A stretch of 64,000 nt of DNA, taken from NCBI GenBank assembly GCA_026390815.1, contig JAPLFH010000007.1, positions 124,001 through 188,000 on the forward strand, given 5' to 3'. Under the pieces are notes generated by a model. The model worked only from the letters and a program-made list of their open reading frames with translations. It was not told the DNA's origin and made no database searches. Positions 11,518 to 47,536 of this stretch are shown here, in pieces. The DNA is from Ignavibacteriales bacterium. GTDB lineage: Bacteria > Bacteroidota > Ignavibacteria > Ignavibacteriales > SURF-24. A program made the translations under genes and the position numbers. How positions within the stretch are numbered: position 1 is the first letter of the stretch; every line of letters begins with the position of its first letter.

Positions 11518-14109
11518 TTATTTCAGCACCACAAACTTTTTAGTTTCAACAAAACTTCCTGCCTTAAGCTGATAAAAATAAATTCCGCTTGGCAATTTAT
11601 TTTTATCAATTGAGAATGTATAATTATAGTTACCAGCATTTTGTTCTTCATTTACTAAAGTTGCAACTTCTTTTCCTAAAACATCATAAACCTTTAATGT
11701 AATTAAAGTCCCTCCTTGGGAGGGATTTAGGGAGGCAGCTATCTGATAACTGATAGTTGTACTTGGATTAAATGGATTTGGATAATTTTGGGATAGAGCA
11801 AACTCTTCTGGTAAATCATTCCGTTTCTGTTCTTCCACCTCTACAATCTTGGATAAATCGAAGATGCTACCGTAAATATCATAACCACTTCCTTCGTTTC
11901 TTGCATCAGACCAGACAAAGAAAACTTTATTACCGTTTACCACAACTGTTGGCTGTTTTTTGAATGATTGAACGTTGGAATGAATTATAAATTCCTTCGA
12001 TTTTTCTTTCCCTTCGTTTGAAAAAGCTTTTGCAAAAAGCTGGTTATTCTTAATGTAAAGGACAAGGAAATCATTATTTGTTAACGGATAAATATTAAAA
12101 AATCTATCTAAATATCTTTCAATAACATCGCTTACAATTTTAAAACTTTTTACTAAAGTATCCCCAGTAACTGATAAAATAGTTCCATAGCGGTCCCAGT
12201 TATAATATGGGCGGGTTATTTGTAAAAATTTATTGTTTCCTAAGTAAGAATCAAAGGTGAGGTTATATATTTGAGAAATTTGTTCTAAGTCTCTATTGAA
12301 GTATTGTAATTTGTCACCCCATTTAATAAAAAAGGAAGTATCATCAACCGAAAATAATTTCAACTCCTGATCGTAACCAATATCAAAATTTGATTCCTTA
12401 ATAATCTCACCGATATTATTCAACAATCTCATAAATAATCTATTCCCATCTGTGTAATACATAACCATGGAAGCAATAGACAACTTTAAAATATTGGGAA
12501 ATTGTGAACTACCTGTACCAAACTTTACCAAGGTATCTTTCAGCATTATATCCCAATCTTTATCGTATAATGTATAACCTTTGTGTGTAAAAGGAATACA
12601 ACCGGAAATGCCTGAGAAAAGCCAAAAATTATAACAGTTACCATTGGGTAAGATAAAACAATTGCTGCTTTCTAAGTTGACCTGATTACCGATTAAATTT
12701 CCTTTGCTGTTTACAGTTATTCCACTGGATATTGTCTCTCGATTCCAGGAAATAAAAAATGAATCGTCCTTTACCGGAATAATATTGGGCAACTGATCAT
12801 TACTTCCTGAAGTATCATCATTAATTTTTATTATATCATTTGAATATGAAGATAAATTGAAAACTGTTTTAAGAAATACATCTTTTTCATCACTGATAAC
12901 AGTATACAATGTGCTGTCATTAATCTGGAAAAAGTTGCTTGGATAGAAAAGTGATGTTATACCACCAGGACCTAAAACTTTCGTATCAGAATTTTGATGA
13001 ATAAATGTTCCATCCGAATTAAATAATAATAAATAATTATTGAACATATCCCAGCCACCTTGTAAGTTCAATTCAGTGGAAATATAAATACAGAATTTAT
13101 TATCCTTAATTGGGGTAATGGTAAAATTATGTATAAATCTTTCTCCACTAAAAGGAGTAATTGAAATACTTTTAAGACTATCAATAAGATTTCCGTCGTT
13201 ATTAATTAAAGCATAATTTAAAGAAATTGGATTTCCTTCCAGCCAAAATATTTGCCAGCGGTTATTTGCAATACTTGCACATTTAATTGGAGGTGTATTC
13301 CATGGATTGAACTCTGAATTATTGTTTGTTTTAAATTCTTTTATAAAAACAGGTGTAGTATTTAAAGAATCATTGGAATCGAAAATAGCTGCATAAATAC
13401 CTATAGGTATTGAATCATTAAGATTTTCCCAATTAATATTGCGTGCATTAAACCAACATAATATGTAATTACTGTTTAAATCTTTATCACAATCAAACTT
13501 TGATGATCTTCTGTTGAAAATATTAGAAGGGAGAGATTTTTTTCGGATAAGATTTCCATTTATATCATAATGATTTAATACTATTGCACCATCTATACGG
13601 ATGATAACATTAAATCCATCTTTCATACTTATACATTTAAAGTCCATCCCCAGGCAATCAACATCGCAACCACTTAATCCTGCTTGAAAAATATTGAAAT
13701 CAAAGCTTGAAGATCCATCCGGATAATATATTTTTCCATCAATGTAAGTAATATCATCCATATGAGGATAATAATATCCAGTCCATTCATTTAATGATAA
13801 AAAAGAGCCATCCATGTTTATGGCTATATCGTCATCATCTAATATTCTTAAATTATTCCCAACAGATTTCCCAAGCGAATCATACCACTGTGCATAAGTA
13901 GTTGCTTCACCTTCGCGATAATCTTTCCAGGTTGTTAAAAACCTTTTTGTTCCATTACAAAATAATTTGGGAGAATTTTGAATAATTGTTGATGGCGAAT
14001 TGTCTGTACTTATCTTAAAATCTTCGACTAATTTTGTGGGTGAGTATTGAGCACTCATTATGCCCGAAAGGAAAAAGTAAGTCACTAAAAGAAAATTCTT
14101 GCTGTTCAT
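11518..14109 (-). CDS. T9SS-sorted secreted protein of unknown function
   Basis: 863-residue extracellular or cell-surface protein. It has an N-terminal signal peptide (MNSKNFLLVTYFFLSG, cleavage after 'SAQ'). The body has repeated blade-like beta segments of the kind 'NSDGTFIHQNSD' and 'LPNIIPVKDDSFFISWN', perhaps a beta-propeller, with no catalytic motif recognised. The C-terminal ~90 residues are a T9SS type-A sorting domain: 'EFALSQNYPNPFNPSTTISY', then 'LKVYDVLGKEVATLV', 'LPSGIYFYQLKAG', 'TKKFVVLK'. The domain has an in-frame insertion (ASLNPSQGGTL) encoded by a palindrome at 11707-11740. A hairpin lies in the 5' gap at 14131. Confidence 0.85.
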   Translation of the reverse strand: MNSKNFLLVTYFFLSGIMSAQYSPTKLVEDFKISTDNSPSTIIQNSPKLFCNGTKRFLTTWKDYREGEATTYAQWYDSLGKSVGNNLRILDDDDIAINMDGSFLSLNEWTGYYYPHMDDITYIDGKIYYPDGSSSFDFNIFQAGLSGCDVDCLGMDFKCISMKDGFNVIIRIDGAIVLNHYDINGNLIRKKSLPSNIFNRRSSKFDCDKDLNSNYILCWFNARNINWENLNDSIPIGIYAAIFDSNDSLNTTPVFIKEFKTNNNSEFNPWNTPPIKCASIANNRWQIFWLEGNPISLNYALINNDGNLIDSLKSISITPFSGERFIHNFTITPIKDNKFCIYISTELNLQGGWDMFNNYLLLFNSDGTFIHQNSDTKVLGPGGITSLFYPSNFFQINDSTLYTVISDEKDVFLKTVFNLSSYSNDIIKINDDTSGSNDQLPNIIPVKDDSFFISWNRETISSGITVNSKGNLIGNQVNLESSNCFILPNGNCYNFWLFSGISGCIPFTHKGYTLYDKDWDIMLKDTLVKFGTGSSQFPNILKLSIASMVMYYTDGNRLFMRLLNNIGEIIKESNFDIGYDQELKLFSVDDTSFFIKWGDKLQYFNRDLEQISQIYNLTFDSYLGNNKFLQITRPYYNWDRYGTILSVTGDTLVKSFKIVSDVIERYLDRFFNIYPLTNNDFLVLYIKNNQLFAKAFSNEGKEKSKEFIIHSNVQSFKKQPTVVVNGNKVFFVWSDARNEGSGYDIYGSIFDLSKIVEVEEQKRNDLPEEFALSQNYPNPFNPSTTISYQIAASLNPSQGGTLITLKVYDVLGKEVATLVNEEQNAGNYNYTFSIDKNKLPSGIYFYQLKAGSFVETKKFVVLK
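11707..11740 (-). repeat. in-frame palindromic insertion within a T9SS sorting domain
   Basis: TCCCTCC (11709-11715) and GGAGGGA (11719-11725) form a perfect inverted repeat around TTG, followed by a further GGGAGG at 11729. This GC-rich patch stands out in an AT-rich gene. On the coding strand it encodes the 'SLNPSQGGT' segment. The loop between the first two strands of the sorting domain is here 16 residues, against 9 in the domains at 29.6 kb and 47.3 kb. It looks like a small mobile or dispersed palindrome tolerated in a protein loop. Confidence 0.6.
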
Positions 14110-22655: not shown

Positions 22656-25067
22656 ATGAAAAAATTATTTTTACTGACTTTAGTATTTACTATAAATATT
22701 ACTTTAATTTTTGCGCAAGATTTTACCGGAATAAAAATTTGCATTAATCCAGGGCATGGTGGTCACGATTCCAATGATAGATTTATTGCAGCAACTGGTT
22801 TTTGGGAGTCTGATGGCAATTTAGCCAAAGGATTGTATCTTCGTGATATTCTGAAAAACTACGGTGCTAATATAGTAATGACCAGAACAACCAACACAAC
22901 AAGTGATGATCTTGCTCTATCTGAAATTGTAGCTATTGCAAATCAAAATAATGTTGATTGGATGCACGCCGTTCATAGTAATGCATTTGATGCAAAATCA
23001 AATTATACTCTTTTGCTTTTCCAGGGAAGAAATGCGGCTCCAACTTATCCTGATTGCCTACCAATGGCTAACACAATGGTTGATGAAATTTACAAGGCGA
23101 ACAGAACGACCCAAAAAATGATTGCCGGTGATTTTGATTTTTATGGAACTGGGCAGGCATATTTAGGCGTCTTCAAAGGGCTTCATATGCCTGGAACATT
23201 ATCCGAAGGTTCATTCCATGATTATGTACCAGAATCCTGGCGTTTAAGAAACGCTGAATATAAAAAGAATGAAGCCTGGGCAATTGCACGTTCATTTGTT
23301 TCTTTTTGGAAATTGACTCCATTTACTCATGGCGTTGCTGCTGGTTTGGTTAGGGATAATTCCCTGAAAGTTGATTATTATTACAACCCCAACGCACGAG
23401 ATGGAAATGAATCAAGGAAACCTTTGAATAAGATAAAAGTAACACTTCAACCCGGGAATAAAGTTTACAATGGTGATGAGTTTAATAATGGATTCTACAT
23501 GTTCGATAGTCTTGCTCCTGGAACTTACAAATTATATTTTGAAGCCGACCGGTATTATTTGGACTCGGCTACAGTAAATGTAGTAGCCAATAAGACAGTA
23601 TTTGCAGATGAATATTTGATATATGATACAACCGCTGCTCCAACGTTGCTTTCCCATACCCCGGAAGATTTAGCGACAAATGTAAAAACTGTTAATCCAA
23701 TTATTATTAATTTTAATAAAGAAATGAATCAAGAATCAACTAAAAATGCTTTTTCTATTAGTCCAAATGTTGTTGGTGCTTTTGCTTTAGGTGATGAAAA
23801 TAAAACTTTAATCTTTACTCCAAAAGTTCCACTTGAAAAATCAACTAAATATACTGTTACAATTTCTGCTTCAGCAAAAAGCATTTGGAATGTGCCACTT
23901 GAGAATAGCGAATCTTTTAGCTTTACAACAAATGACCGCAACCGGGTTCATTTAGTGAATTCATACCCAAGAGAAAATCAGTATGATATAAGCAATTATG
24001 TTCTTTTCAAGTTGACTTTTGATGCACCGATTACGGCTTCGCTAGGTAACTTTAAATTATTTGATTTGAATAACAATGAAGAATCATTGACTAATTTCCG
24101 TCTTTCCACTGAAAATGGGTTGGGTGTTGCTTACTTTGAATCTAAAAATGGTTTGGGAATTTTTACAAACTATAAATTAATGATGGATGGTTCAATAAAA
24201 GATAACGAAGGTTATCCTTTAGTTGATACCATTTGGCTTCAATTCCAAACTCTTCACGAAAAATATATTTCTGGTGCTGTTGTAGATAGTTTTGAAACAA
24301 TTGGTAAATGGAAGAATGCAAGTAGAGGTGCAGAATCAACAGGAATTGATACAATTGCTTCTACATTTAAAATTACTTACAGCAAATATTTCCGTGGAAA
24401 AAATTCTGCACGACTCGCATATTCATTTAAAAACGAAAACGATGGGATTTGCCAGTATTTTAATTCTGATAAGTTTAATATTGGAAGCAGTTCTTCTTCT
24501 GAATTTGGAATGTGGGTTTATGGGGATTTAAGTAATAATATTCTTGAATACTGGTTTGATAGTAACGGAATTGGAAGTTCTAAAATATTTGTTGATACAA
24601 TAAATTGGTCTGGTTGGAAACTTAAAAGAATTTCAACTTCCAACATTCCAGTAACTGGCGATAAATTTTTCCACAGTATAGTTGTAAAGCAATCAGCAAC
24701 TGGAACTAAAACTTCTATCATTTATGTAGATGATGCTCAGTATAATATTGTAGTTCCTGTTGAAGAAAATAAAAAAGAAAGCGCTCCTAAAAGATTTGTG
24801 CTTCAGCAAAATTATCCAAATCCTTTTAATCCTTCAACAATTATAGAGTATTCCATTCCGGGTGTGGGGGCAGGATCAACATCAAAGGTACTCTTAAAAA
24901 TTTATGATGTTCTTGGTAACGAAGTAGCAACACTTGTTAACGAAGATAAATCTGCAGGTAACTATCGTGTTGAATTTAATTCGGAAAACTTATCAAGTGG
25001 AATTTATTTTTATAAATTGCAGAGCAATCAAAATATTGAAATTAGAAAAATGATTTTGGTGAGGTAA
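22656..25067 (+). CDS. T9SS-sorted N-acetylmuramoyl-L-alanine amidase
   Basis: Secreted peptidoglycan amidase (Amidase_3) of 803 residues. After the signal peptide (cleavage near 'IFAQD') the catalytic domain has the zinc motif 'INPGHGGHDSNDR', a Glu in 'GFWESDGNLAKG', 'DWMHAVHSNAFDA' and the C-terminal Glu in 'TLSEGSFHDY'. Then come a carboxypeptidase-regulatory-like module (~245-320), a Big_5 Ig-like domain (~325-425, 'ATNVKTVNPIIINFNKEMN'), a second Ig-like domain and a jelly-roll-like segment. The T9SS type-A sorting domain contains 'LQQNYPNPFNPSTIIEY' and ends 'IRKMILVR'. The sorting-domain loop carries 'GVGAGSTSKV', about five residues longer than in the two short versions in this window. 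Confidence 0.9.
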   Translation: MKKLFLLTLVFTINITLIFAQDFTGIKICINPGHGGHDSNDRFIAATGFWESDGNLAKGLYLRDILKNYGANIVMTRTTNTTSDDLALSEIVAIANQNNVDWMHAVHSNAFDAKSNYTLLLFQGRNAAPTYPDCLPMANTMVDEIYKANRTTQKMIAGDFDFYGTGQAYLGVFKGLHMPGTLSEGSFHDYVPESWRLRNAEYKKNEAWAIARSFVSFWKLTPFTHGVAAGLVRDNSLKVDYYYNPNARDGNESRKPLNKIKVTLQPGNKVYNGDEFNNGFYMFDSLAPGTYKLYFEADRYYLDSATVNVVANKTVFADEYLIYDTTAAPTLLSHTPEDLATNVKTVNPIIINFNKEMNQESTKNAFSISPNVVGAFALGDENKTLIFTPKVPLEKSTKYTVTISASAKSIWNVPLENSESFSFTTNDRNRVHLVNSYPRENQYDISNYVLFKLTFDAPITASLGNFKLFDLNNNEESLTNFRLSTENGLGVAYFESKNGLGIFTNYKLMMDGSIKDNEGYPLVDTIWLQFQTLHEKYISGAVVDSFETIGKWKNASRGAESTGIDTIASTFKITYSKYFRGKNSARLAYSFKNENDGICQYFNSDKFNIGSSSSSEFGMWVYGDLSNNILEYWFDSNGIGSSKIFVDTINWSGWKLKRISTSNIPVTGDKFFHSIVVKQSATGTKTSIIYVDDAQYNIVVPVEENKKESAPKRFVLQQNYPNPFNPSTIIEYSIPGVGAGSTSKVLLKIYDVLGNEVATLVNEDKSAGNYRVEFNSENLSSGIYFYKLQSNQNIEIRKMILVR

Positions 25068-44355: not shown

Positions 44356-47300
44356 ATGAAAATAAAAAATTTACTTTTAACATTTGTCAGCCTAATATTT
44401 CTGACGATAAATTATGTGAGTGCACAACCAGCGCCGATAACACCAACCAGTGGTGCACCTGGTGTTTCTCTTACTCCTTCATTTACGTGGCAAGACTACG
44501 CACCACCAGGAAATAATTATGATTGGTCGATCTGGACAGATGTTTATACCAATCCTGGGGCAACAATGTTGGATATCAAAACTAATATTACTAATAGTAC
44601 AACTTATGGTGGTGCTACAGCATTAACAAATAACACAACTTATTACTGGTATGTTCAAGACCACGTCACCCCAACATTGTATGGACCTTATACTTTCACA
44701 ACAATCGTTGCAACCCCAAGCTTGTTAACTCCTGGTGTTGCCGCTGCTGGAGTGGCTGTTTCAGGAACAAATTTAATATGGGATCCATTAGCCGCTAATA
44801 CAGCTGGTGTTACACTGAATGTCCAATATCAAGTGAATGGAGCTGGTGCTTGGACAGATGTACCATTTGCAGATCCAACAACCACTTCATGTCTATTACC
44901 TATTCTTTTATATAACACACAATATAATTGGCAAGTACAAGCTATTGGACCAAATGAAACTACAACTTCAATTCCTCGTTCATTTACAACATTAATGCTA
45001 CCTGCGCCTGCGTTAACAACACCAGCCACTACTTTAAGTGGTATTTCAATATTGCCATATTTTGAATGGACATGGTCTGGTTTTGGTGCGGTAACATATG
45101 ACTTAACTATTTATGAGTCTGATGGCATTTCTGTAGTGACAACTAAAACTATCATTACTGAAAAACATTATCAGTTCCTTGAAACTGACTTTGTATTATC
45201 AAATAACCATAATTACAAATGGAAGGTTACTGTTAGACAAGGAACTAATGAAAGATCTTCCACTCTTTCAGAATTTAAGACAACTGTTTCTGCTGTTGCT
45301 TCACTTAGCAATCCCGGAAGTGGAATCGTATATACTTACGCCCCAGTTTTTTTCTCATGGTATCTTAGCACGTCAGTTGGTTCATTAACTTTTGAGTTAC
45401 AATATGTTAAGGACGCTGCGAGTAGCGGAACTCCAGATGCAAGTGATTGGGCAAATGTTGCAATCACAACAACTGTTCCTTGCAATAGTGATTTAACTAA
45501 TAATGATCAAACGTTGGATTCCGGTACGAAATATTGGTGGAGAATAATTACTTTTAGAGATGGAGAAGTAGTTTCGTATGCAACAGCAAGATCATTTACA
45601 ACAAGTGGTGGTGCTACAATTGCAAAAGCAATACCGTCCTGGCCAATTGGCGGAGCTGGAACTAAAGTATATACTAATACTCCAACATTTTATTGGTATA
45701 CAAATAGTGGCGACCTTACTGATATTTCATTTGATTTGTTAATTGATCAACACAGCGGCGATTTAGATGTTGGTAGTGAAGTGCATGTAGTAAATATATC
45801 GGATCTAAGTTATACTTTGGACGGAACAGCCGGTCAACTATTGCTACCTGGAACGGTATATTATTGGAAAGTAAAAACTTATTATAAACGAGGGGTCGTA
45901 GGAATAGAACGAACATATACTCCTACGGCATATGCTTCATTCAAAACAAATGGAGAAGGAACAGTACTAACACCAATCTTATCATACCCAACTGGTAGTG
46001 TGACTGTTTATACAGAAACTCCAACGTTATACTGGTACCTTGGTGGATTAAGTGATGGATTAACTTTTGAGGTTTCGATTAATGGACAATTTTATACAAC
46101 AACAGATTTGTATTTGGATTTATCAACAGTTACAACATCAGCAGGTTTAACCGGAGGGGGCATATATTCCTGGACAGTGAGAGCATATAACGGTAGCGGC
46201 GGAACGATAACTTCTGCACCAGCATCATTTAAAATTGCTGGGGGAACAACACAAGGCAAACCAATCGCTTCATGGCCTATTGGAAATCATCCTACTGTTT
46301 ACACAACAACACCAACATTATATTGGTATGTTTCAGGTTCTACCCTGGGGCTGGATGGGTATAGAGTTGCTTGGTCACAAGCAACAATCGCTCCCAATGC
46401 TGCTTGGTCAGCTGTTGTAACTTATGAAAATATTACAGACCTTTCACAGATGAGTTGCAATACATTCACTGGAAATTATGGTGAATCTTGGCATTGGGCA
46501 GTGGCTTCTTACATAGGCGGAAGTTTTTCTACATGGTCAACTGGTGAATTCACAATAGCAGGTACAACCGGGTCAATAGTTCCGGTTGCCTCCTATCCAA
46601 AAGGTGGTGTAACAATCTATTCAATTTCAGCAACATTGTCCTGGTATGTAAATGGATCAACCACTGGTATCGATCATTACAGAGTTGTATATAGTCGAAG
46701 ATCAGATATGGATGAATCAGATGTTACAAATACTTTCCACGCAGAACCAACTGATCAATATCTTGATGTAACTGATTTAGTTCCAGGTGCTACATATTAT
46801 TGGAAAGTTGCGTCGCATAACGGTACGGGTTTATCAGCATATTCAAATCCCACTGCAATATTTGTTGTTGCACCGACTGCAAGTGCGAGTGTTGTAGTTC
46901 CTTTAGTTGGGAGTCCTAACCATGGTGTTGGTATTCCTACAACTTCACCTATGTTATCTTGGGTAATTCCAACCCAAACTTCAACACAATTGAACTATGA
47001 AATACAATATTCAAAACAACAAGATATGAGCGATGCAATAACAGTCAACGGAATTAAGAGCCCATCTCAAATTGTATCTGATTTGTCAGCAAATCAAGAA
47101 TACTACTGGAGAGTTCGTTCCGTAAATGATAAAGGAGAGGCATCAGCTTATTCTGAAGCTGGTAAATTTGTAGTTAGTTCAGTAACTGCAGTTGAGGATA
47201 AAGAAGTAATTCCGACTAAATTTAATTTATCACAGAATTATCCTAATCCTTTCAATCCGGCAACTACAATCAGGTTTGCGTTACCAGAAGCTTCCCCTGT

Positions 47301-47493
47301 AATAGTAAAAATATTTAATATTCTGGGTAAGGAAGTGAAAACATTAGTTAATGAAAATATGCAAGCTGGTAATCATTTAGTGGTTTGGAATGGAGATGAT
47401 GAATCCGGAAAGACATTGCCAAGTGGAACTTATATATACAGAATAACAGCGGGCAATAACTCTCAGAATAGAAAAATGGTTTTATTAAAGTAA
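44356..47493 (+). CDS. T9SS-sorted multi-FnIII surface protein
   Basis: 1045-residue exported protein. Its signal peptide ends near 'NYVSAQP', and an 'aaaggag' ribosome site precedes the ATG. The body is a string of about nine FnIII/Ig-like modules, each with a 'YYWkV'-type strand. The middle ones share 'xxPTLYWYxxG' (TPTFYWYTNSG, TPTLYWYLGG, TPTLYWYVSGS, SATLSWYVNGS) at ~100-residue spacing. The C-terminal T9SS domain is 'NLSQNYPNPFNPATTIRF', with 'NILGKEVKTLVNENMQAG' and the end 'NRKMVLLK'. No catalytic motif is seen, so adhesion or scaffold is the likely role. It is preceded by a strong promoter, so it may be highly expressed. Confidence 0.87.
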   Translation: MKIKNLLLTFVSLIFLTINYVSAQPAPITPTSGAPGVSLTPSFTWQDYAPPGNNYDWSIWTDVYTNPGATMLDIKTNITNSTTYGGATALTNNTTYYWYVQDHVTPTLYGPYTFTTIVATPSLLTPGVAAAGVAVSGTNLIWDPLAANTAGVTLNVQYQVNGAGAWTDVPFADPTTTSCLLPILLYNTQYNWQVQAIGPNETTTSIPRSFTTLMLPAPALTTPATTLSGISILPYFEWTWSGFGAVTYDLTIYESDGISVVTTKTIITEKHYQFLETDFVLSNNHNYKWKVTVRQGTNERSSTLSEFKTTVSAVASLSNPGSGIVYTYAPVFFSWYLSTSVGSLTFELQYVKDAASSGTPDASDWANVAITTTVPCNSDLTNNDQTLDSGTKYWWRIITFRDGEVVSYATARSFTTSGGATIAKAIPSWPIGGAGTKVYTNTPTFYWYTNSGDLTDISFDLLIDQHSGDLDVGSEVHVVNISDLSYTLDGTAGQLLLPGTVYYWKVKTYYKRGVVGIERTYTPTAYASFKTNGEGTVLTPILSYPTGSVTVYTETPTLYWYLGGLSDGLTFEVSINGQFYTTTDLYLDLSTVTTSAGLTGGGIYSWTVRAYNGSGGTITSAPASFKIAGGTTQGKPIASWPIGNHPTVYTTTPTLYWYVSGSTLGLDGYRVAWSQATIAPNAAWSAVVTYENITDLSQMSCNTFTGNYGESWHWAVASYIGGSFSTWSTGEFTIAGTTGSIVPVASYPKGGVTIYSISATLSWYVNGSTTGIDHYRVVYSRRSDMDESDVTNTFHAEPTDQYLDVTDLVPGATYYWKVASHNGTGLSAYSNPTAIFVVAPTASASVVVPLVGSPNHGVGIPTTSPMLSWVIPTQTSTQLNYEIQYSKQQDMSDAITVNGIKSPSQIVSDLSANQEYYWRVRSVNDKGEASAYSEAGKFVVSSVTAVEDKEVIPTKFNLSQNYPNPFNPATTIRFALPEASPVIVKIFNILGKEVKTLVNENMQAGNHLVVWNGDDESGKTLPSGTYIYRITAGNNSQNRKMVLLK

Positions 47494-47507: not shown

Positions 47508-47536
47508 TGCCGGGAATATTATTCCCGGCATATTAT
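47508..47536 (+). terminator. strong hairpin after the FnIII T9SS gene
   Basis: TGCCGGGAAT (47508-47517) pairs perfectly with ATTCCCGGCA (47521-47530) around a 3-base loop, followed by 'tattatttt'. It lies 15 bases after the stop codon. Confidence 0.82.

Follow-up and report, generated by a model that had tools for sequence, protein, structure and literature searches.

A probable REP-like palindromic element in frame in a T9SS sorting-domain loop, with relatives that flank DUF559 domains in Bacteroidota

Background

Why one loop of a sorting domain should be encoded by a perfect palindrome is the question raised by the gene at 11518–14109 (minus strand) of the window, by which we mean the whole 64,000-nucleotide stretch of Ignavibacteriales DNA analysed here. 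The gene encodes 863 amino acids with a C-terminal T9SS type A sorting domain, and the initial annotation had inferred from it that short dispersed palindromes land in frame at a tolerant loop, like the palindromic elements in Rickettsia genes. Those elements reportedly go back to Ogata et al. in 2000 and 2002, and to our knowledge they have long been a curiosity whose mover is not known.

As described from Rickettsia in the accessible part of one source, these elements are about 150 bp long (PMC10969869). The intragenic GTAG and CGTC REPs are a second precedent; in the portion of the report available to us they are dispersed units of 20–40 bp, single or in inverted pairs, some of which lie inside ORFs, including those for tRNA synthetases and DNA repair genes (Di Nocera et al. 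2013, PMC3733652). Coding palindromes are thus already known, and for the DUF559 cassette described below we found no report in the literature.

Results

A palindromic unit in the first loop of the sorting domain

The C-terminus of the host protein scored above the curated cut-offs of both sorting-domain profiles (44.8 bits against 23 for TIGR04183 and 41.9 against 27 for PF18962), and the domain, at 11521–11799 on the minus strand, was modelled with a mean pLDDT of 81.5. The residues ASLNPSQGGT, read on the minus strand from the complement of AGTCCCTCCTTGGGAGGGATTTAGGGAGGC at 11707–11736, lie between strands 13–20 and 31–39 of this model, where a surface hairpin loop is predicted for the insert, at a lower pLDDT than that of the strands after it. 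The perfect hairpin TCCCTCC-TTG-GGAGGGA occupies 11709–11725 (no strand assigned; DNA fold −6.7 kcal/mol, z −2.0) and is the single match to this sequence in the window at up to two mismatches, with 0.01 expected. The full unit of 32 nt at 11705–11736 (plus strand), AAAGT-CCCTCC-TTG-GGAGGG-ATTTA-GGGAGG-C, exceeds the palindrome, since the hairpin is joined on its outer side by a tail, GGGAGG at 11730–11735 (plus strand), that repeats the hairpin arm, as in the DUF559 cassettes described below. The window copy is a solo unit: no inverted partner or second palindrome match was found beside it in the window, and Pfam identified no DUF559 domain in the host gene. No Rfam family matched L001, L002 or L274.

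The loop that holds the unit (loop 1) is 16 residues long. The source genome has at least 150 sorting domains (150 of 245 candidates were scored), and among 92 distinct domains loop 1 is 9 residues long in 73 and reaches 14 or more in 8; the other 11 were not parsed by the regular expression and were excluded from this split. The initial annotation, which had described an in-frame palindrome here and a loop of 16 instead of 9 residues, was correct on both points. It had further pointed to a sorting domain near 24.85 kb (24813–25058, plus strand), and the loop 1 of this domain, SIPGVGAGSTSKVL, is indeed a different, 14-residue version; it contains no hairpin, however, and was ruled out as a second palindromic case, so that the domain serves for comparison and is not a member of the family. 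Separately, a perfect palindrome, TGCCGGGAATATTATTCCCGGCA, is present at 47508–47530, directly past the stop codon of an open reading frame (44356–47493) that also has a terminal sorting domain, and is possibly a terminator.

Copies and other palindromes in the source genome

The 27-mer core of the element occurs twice in the 4.52-Mb source genome. The second copy, at G000:C43, is identical over all 32 nt and lies in the same loop and frame of an unrelated protein, which we take from its sequence to be a subtilisin-like protease. The two elements are 100% identical, synonymous positions included, whereas identity in the upstream flanks is 53% for the adjacent 30 nt and 65% for 60 nt. The sorting domain at C12 contains a third copy, which has decayed and reads SSLNPSQGGT. 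Among the eight long loops of this genome, five hold a clear palindrome, one the decayed copy and two none, and the five comprise the GGAGGG element twice together with three other families, CCCTCACC..CCTCTCC/GGAGAGG..GGTGAGGG, CCTGCC/GGCAGG and CCACCC/GGGTGG. The CCTCTCC type was found at eight places in the genome (control 0), five in frame in proteins and three beside or between genes. Over a set of 25 extended loops, many of them found via the element itself, a strong hairpin was present in 17, compared to 1.3% of shuffles. We also observed palindromes with GTAG-like and CGTC-like tags, as judged by eye, in loop 1 or 3 of sorting domains (L066, L155, L064, L057, L099 and L362), indicating that several palindrome families use these domains.

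Insertion versus descent

A search of 38 other relatives recovered homologues of the window protein in 5. In the nearest of them (L269, same family, 34% identity), loop 1 carries a different palindrome; three (L271, L272 and L273) have a short loop 1, and one (L270) has a longer loop 1 without a palindrome. The C43 protease had matches in 37 of 39 genomes, its own included, and the element was absent from all 28 readable orthologues among 29 loci from other genomes; the set of 30 loci included the own gene and one locus read in the wrong frame (L367), and 18 of the others failed the regular expression and were judged short by eye. One orthologue, L362, has another, GTAG-like palindrome in the loop.

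On a tree of 118 domains, built with the loop removed, the 13 element-bearing domains require 11 changes, no fewer than 7 of them forced by well supported branches; the tree rests on few columns. The window domain is sister to L241, which carries the decayed copy (support 100/93), and L066 and L068, about 1.4 kb apart, are nearly identical; within each of these pairs the insertion is common through duplication. The junction is alike at 13 sites in 7 genomes, reading xIPASLNPS in most, and in Stygiobacter RIFOXYC2 (G035), from the same order as the source genome, all five copies lie in sorting-domain loops.

The initial annotation had stated that many copies at the same loop would support mobility and that a sequence unique in the genome, or an extended loop conserved by descent, would refute it. 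Both exact copies and the decayed one in the source genome lie at this loop, as do those in G035; the identical C43 copy shows that the sequence is not unique, and the empty protease orthologues, the differing L269 palindrome and the changes on the domain tree show that the extended loop has not been conserved through common descent. The unit in the window is inserted in frame in the sorting-domain loop of a secreted protein. The idea of dispersed palindromes landing in frame at a tolerant loop is largely supported, except that some copies are duplicated insertions; what had been missed is a palindrome family that is phylum-wide and also flanks DUF559 domains.

The element across Bacteroidota

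Of 395 phylum genomes, 62 contain the pattern CCCTCCN{1,8}GGAGGGN{3,8}GGGAGG, and none contains it read backwards, which served as the control. The exact type was present in 102 stretches from GTDB genomes, nearly all from Bacteroidota in the broad sense and one from Paenibacillus. This last record (L080, Paenibacillus nasutitermitis, a Firmicute) has one exact-type copy, which may reflect transfer, contamination or a related family. An alignment of 87 copies gave AAGTCCCTCCTTNGGAGGGATTTAGGGAGGC, with unrelated flanks. When 108 distinct exact-type copies were placed, 10 fell in sorting-domain loops, with strand and frame the same in each; 25 were inside other open frames (at least 150 codons) and 11 at the C-terminus of such frames; 15 were ambiguous, being located in an open frame but not downstream of its first Met, and 47 were intergenic-like. 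Hosts, named by eye, include MetRS, IleRS, AroA, MetH, histidine kinases and an ABC-F-like ATPase. In Ignavibacteria the exact-type copies are nearly all in sorting domains, a placement that random transposition alone would not predict.

DUF559 domains between inverted palindromes

The same 31-mer forms the left end of an in-frame DUF559 insert in the MetRS of Chitinophagaceae and in adenine deaminase (names assigned by eye), and the insert ends on the right with an inverted palindrome. The left end has the tail outside and the hairpin inside, and the right end is its mirror image. Cassettes in MetH, LeuRS and HsdR-like proteins also terminate in palindromes of a similar kind, and the source genome has two such cassettes: one in MetH (in-frame DUF559 domain at G000:C30:8285-8599; L209, L274), where Pfam places DUF559 between B12-binding_2 and B12-binding, and one in a type I restriction HsdR-like protein (G000:C16:75606-75923; L199, L308). 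In MetRS, DUF559 splits the Pfam domain tRNA-synt_1g. No splicing (Hint) domain was found in the L112 MetRS or in the own MetH, where Pfam matched DUF559 and, weakly, MTES_1575 REase between the host domains, and the protein seems to retain the cassette. A structure model of MetRS with its cassette had a mean pLDDT of 33.8 and was not used.

Several further palindromes were seen around these genes. The right-hand palindrome of the own MetH cassette holds a second, nested palindrome, CCTGCC..GGCAGG; another in-frame palindrome lies about 70 codons upstream of the HsdR-like cassette (G000:C16:76132-76150), and the neighbouring HsdM-like protein (L309) also has one in frame. In L216, the N-terminus of a HisA-like protein is joined to a DUF559 domain by a palindrome-like peptide, SPSGAGG.

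Hairpins were counted beside DUF559 domains with a criterion of a stem of at least 6, 60% GC and a loop of 3–7, which 11 of 573 background windows met. In the first set of 38 domains, hairpins were present on both sides of 13 and on at least one side of 18 of the 19 embedded domains, and on both sides of 4 and at least one side of 11 of the 19 non-embedded ones. In a later set, the corresponding counts were 4 and 8 of 10 embedded domains, including two (L317 and L322) that repeat first-set sites, and 7 and 16 of 18 others. The criterion also fires near Y1 genes (either side 13/30, both 3/30), so that gene-adjacent hairpins are not specific to DUF559, and it may include terminators, as the hairpin downstream of a standalone DUF559 gene may be. 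Given this lack of specificity, more weight was placed on distance. Among the matches listed, 14 of 111 element-type palindromes, in 9 genomes, lie within 300 bp of a DUF559 domain, compared to 0.084 expected, and the other 97 lie more than 300 bp from any. This test covers, for 31 genomes, the listed palindrome places (the first ones of each genome), nearly all of which were searched for DUF559, and excludes genomes without such a search (e.g. G218, G202, G142, G302 and G267); DUF559 places entered it as 1 of 6 in G357 and 4 of 5 in G160, the omitted ones being off the contigs of the listed palindromes.

DUF559 was present in 31 of 36 element-positive genomes compared to 19 of 36 family-matched element-negative ones, and strong embedded DUF559 in 13 of 36 compared to none of 36. 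Both sets were chosen by hand and matched by family where possible, and the comparison of embedded cassettes is partly circular, since a genome can count as positive on account of a cassette end alone. On a DUF559 tree the cassettes cluster mostly by host gene, with those of MetRS, the MetRS C-terminus and adenine deaminase forming one clade.

Filled and empty alleles of MetH

The MetH gene was found in 58 of 59 genomes, with a longer open frame in nine. Among 30 loci that were read, 6 were filled, 1 held a remnant and 23 were empty, and one genus holds both filled and empty alleles. The distribution of the cassette on the host tree needs five changes, at least four of them forced. A glutamate stands directly upstream of the insertion in all seven filled or remnant alleles and in none of the 23 empty ones, as co-conversion of a short flank would give. 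The filled MetH frames that were read, like those of the sorting domains, are in frame and free of stops; on this sequence evidence, and without protein data, plain translation is a simpler account of how the inserts are tolerated than translational bypassing or splicing.

Discussion

With a probability of roughly 0.8, and on the strength of sequence comparison, we read the unit in the window as a copy, acquired by insertion, of a REP-like palindromic element that is scattered across Bacteroidota and Ignavibacteriota. The mobility of the 32-mer and any role of DUF559 are inferred; transposition itself was not observed, nor was a target-site duplication defined. Copies would arise by transposition- or homing-like events and most would be lost, the survivors being those in tolerant surface loops with a stop-free frame. 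The DUF559 protein, nuclease-like and of PD-(D/E)XK type, may nick or cut DNA, with a hairpin-ended unit then copied in during repair, and solo palindromes such as the window copy may be non-autonomous ends or remnants. That this protein is the mover is a tentative suggestion, for which we would allow somewhat less than an even chance; some unidentified host process is a possibility of the same standing, and a RAYT-like Y1 transposase is a doubtful candidate. That sorting domains accumulate palindromes is probably due to their number and to the tolerance of their loops.

A palindrome arising by chance from the codons of a low-complexity Pro/Gly/Ser loop, with no insertion at all, can practically be dismissed. 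The peptide is rich in Gly, Pro and Ser, which is common in loops, but chance does not account for identity over 31–32 nt across genera, strands and frames, for a backwards control of zero or for the excess of strong hairpins over shuffles in the extended loops (many of them found via the element), and the intergenic and other-frame copies already refute it. More serious, if still improbable, is a single founding insertion that spread among sorting domains by duplication, shuffling and short gene conversion, the 32-mer being immobile in this lineage. The like junction at 13 sites, the sister relation of the window domain to L241, the near-identical neighbours L066 and L068 and the five Stygiobacter copies all speak for it; against it stand the diverged flanks around an element identical even at synonymous positions, the forced changes on the domain tree (few columns notwithstanding), the several unrelated palindrome families in the same loop and the presence of the same element elsewhere in MetRS, histidine kinases, AroA and other proteins.

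It is also conceivable, though we consider it unlikely, that the element is a conventional REP mobilised in trans by a transposase of the RAYT kind (Y1, IS200/IS605-type) and that its link to DUF559 is hitch-hiking. Its size and layout are REP-like, the source genome has six Y1_Tnp matches, and sorting-domain loops can hold GTAG- and CGTC-like palindromes as well, RAYTs being the accepted partners of GTAG REPs in the available part of the report (PMC3733652). The element is absent, however, from all 30 Y1 loci, and none of 66 placed copies lies within 300 bp of a Y1 gene, compared to 6 for DUF559 in the same genomes, and on this ground a RAYT was set aside as the linked transposase; the consensus of 87 copies also has neither a GTAG nor a CGTC tag. 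The Y1 genes themselves (L173, L182, L174, L190 and others) have their own downstream hairpins, CCCACGGCTAAAGCCGTGGG-like, and these units are apparently classical REP/RAYT, distinct from the GGAGGG element.

The inserted, dispersed element that we favour shares traits with several known systems. It meets what would be expected of a Rickettsia-like palindromic element, its units being in frame in many unrelated proteins and also between genes; unlike those elements, solo units here measure 31–32 nt, are found in Bacteroidota/Ignavibacteriota, prefer the T9SS sorting-domain loop and have counterparts at the ends of DUF559 cassettes. It resembles REPs as a dispersed palindrome of 31–32 nt, with only two exact copies in the source genome, and differs from them in lacking a GTAG or CGTC tag, in having no RAYT found at its ends, in an outer tail that repeats the hairpin arm and in its link to DUF559. 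The cassette recalls homing endonuclease genes of inteins and introns, being a nuclease-like gene in conserved hosts with filled and empty alleles and a co-travelling flank residue; unlike them, it has no Pfam splicing domain and its ends are hairpins. The PD-(D/E)XK DUF559 domain is shared with Caulobacter VsrA, a Vsr-like, putative mismatch-repair endonuclease, in whose description, as far as the text is available, neither palindromes nor gene-internal cassettes are mentioned (PMC12907096). A search of titles and the beginnings of abstracts, with subscription papers and most preprints outside its reach, found no literature linking DUF559 to palindromes, or palindromes to T9SS sorting domains.

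Taken further, these observations could describe a class of mobile element in Bacteroidota in which an in-frame DUF559 gene between inverted hairpin ends resides unspliced in the housekeeping enzymes MetH, MetRS, LeuRS, HsdR and adenine deaminase and homes between alleles with co-converted flanks, and whose 30-nt ends spread alone as coding palindromes and colonise the T9SS loop. We regard this as conjecture that may well prove wrong.

Conclusions

The presence of relatives of the element in many unrelated proteins, often flanking a nuclease-like gene, suggests a mobile DNA family that spreads through coding sequence. A free-living phylum here shows a phenomenon comparable to that of Rickettsia, and it offers numerous copies, alleles both with and without an insert, and a candidate enzyme that is physically linked to the repeats, which brings the question of how selfish palindromes enter proteins within reach of bench experiments. 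The phenomenon also accounts for odd loop inserts, in T9SS sorting domains as in tRNA synthetases, which would be taken as adaptive without it.
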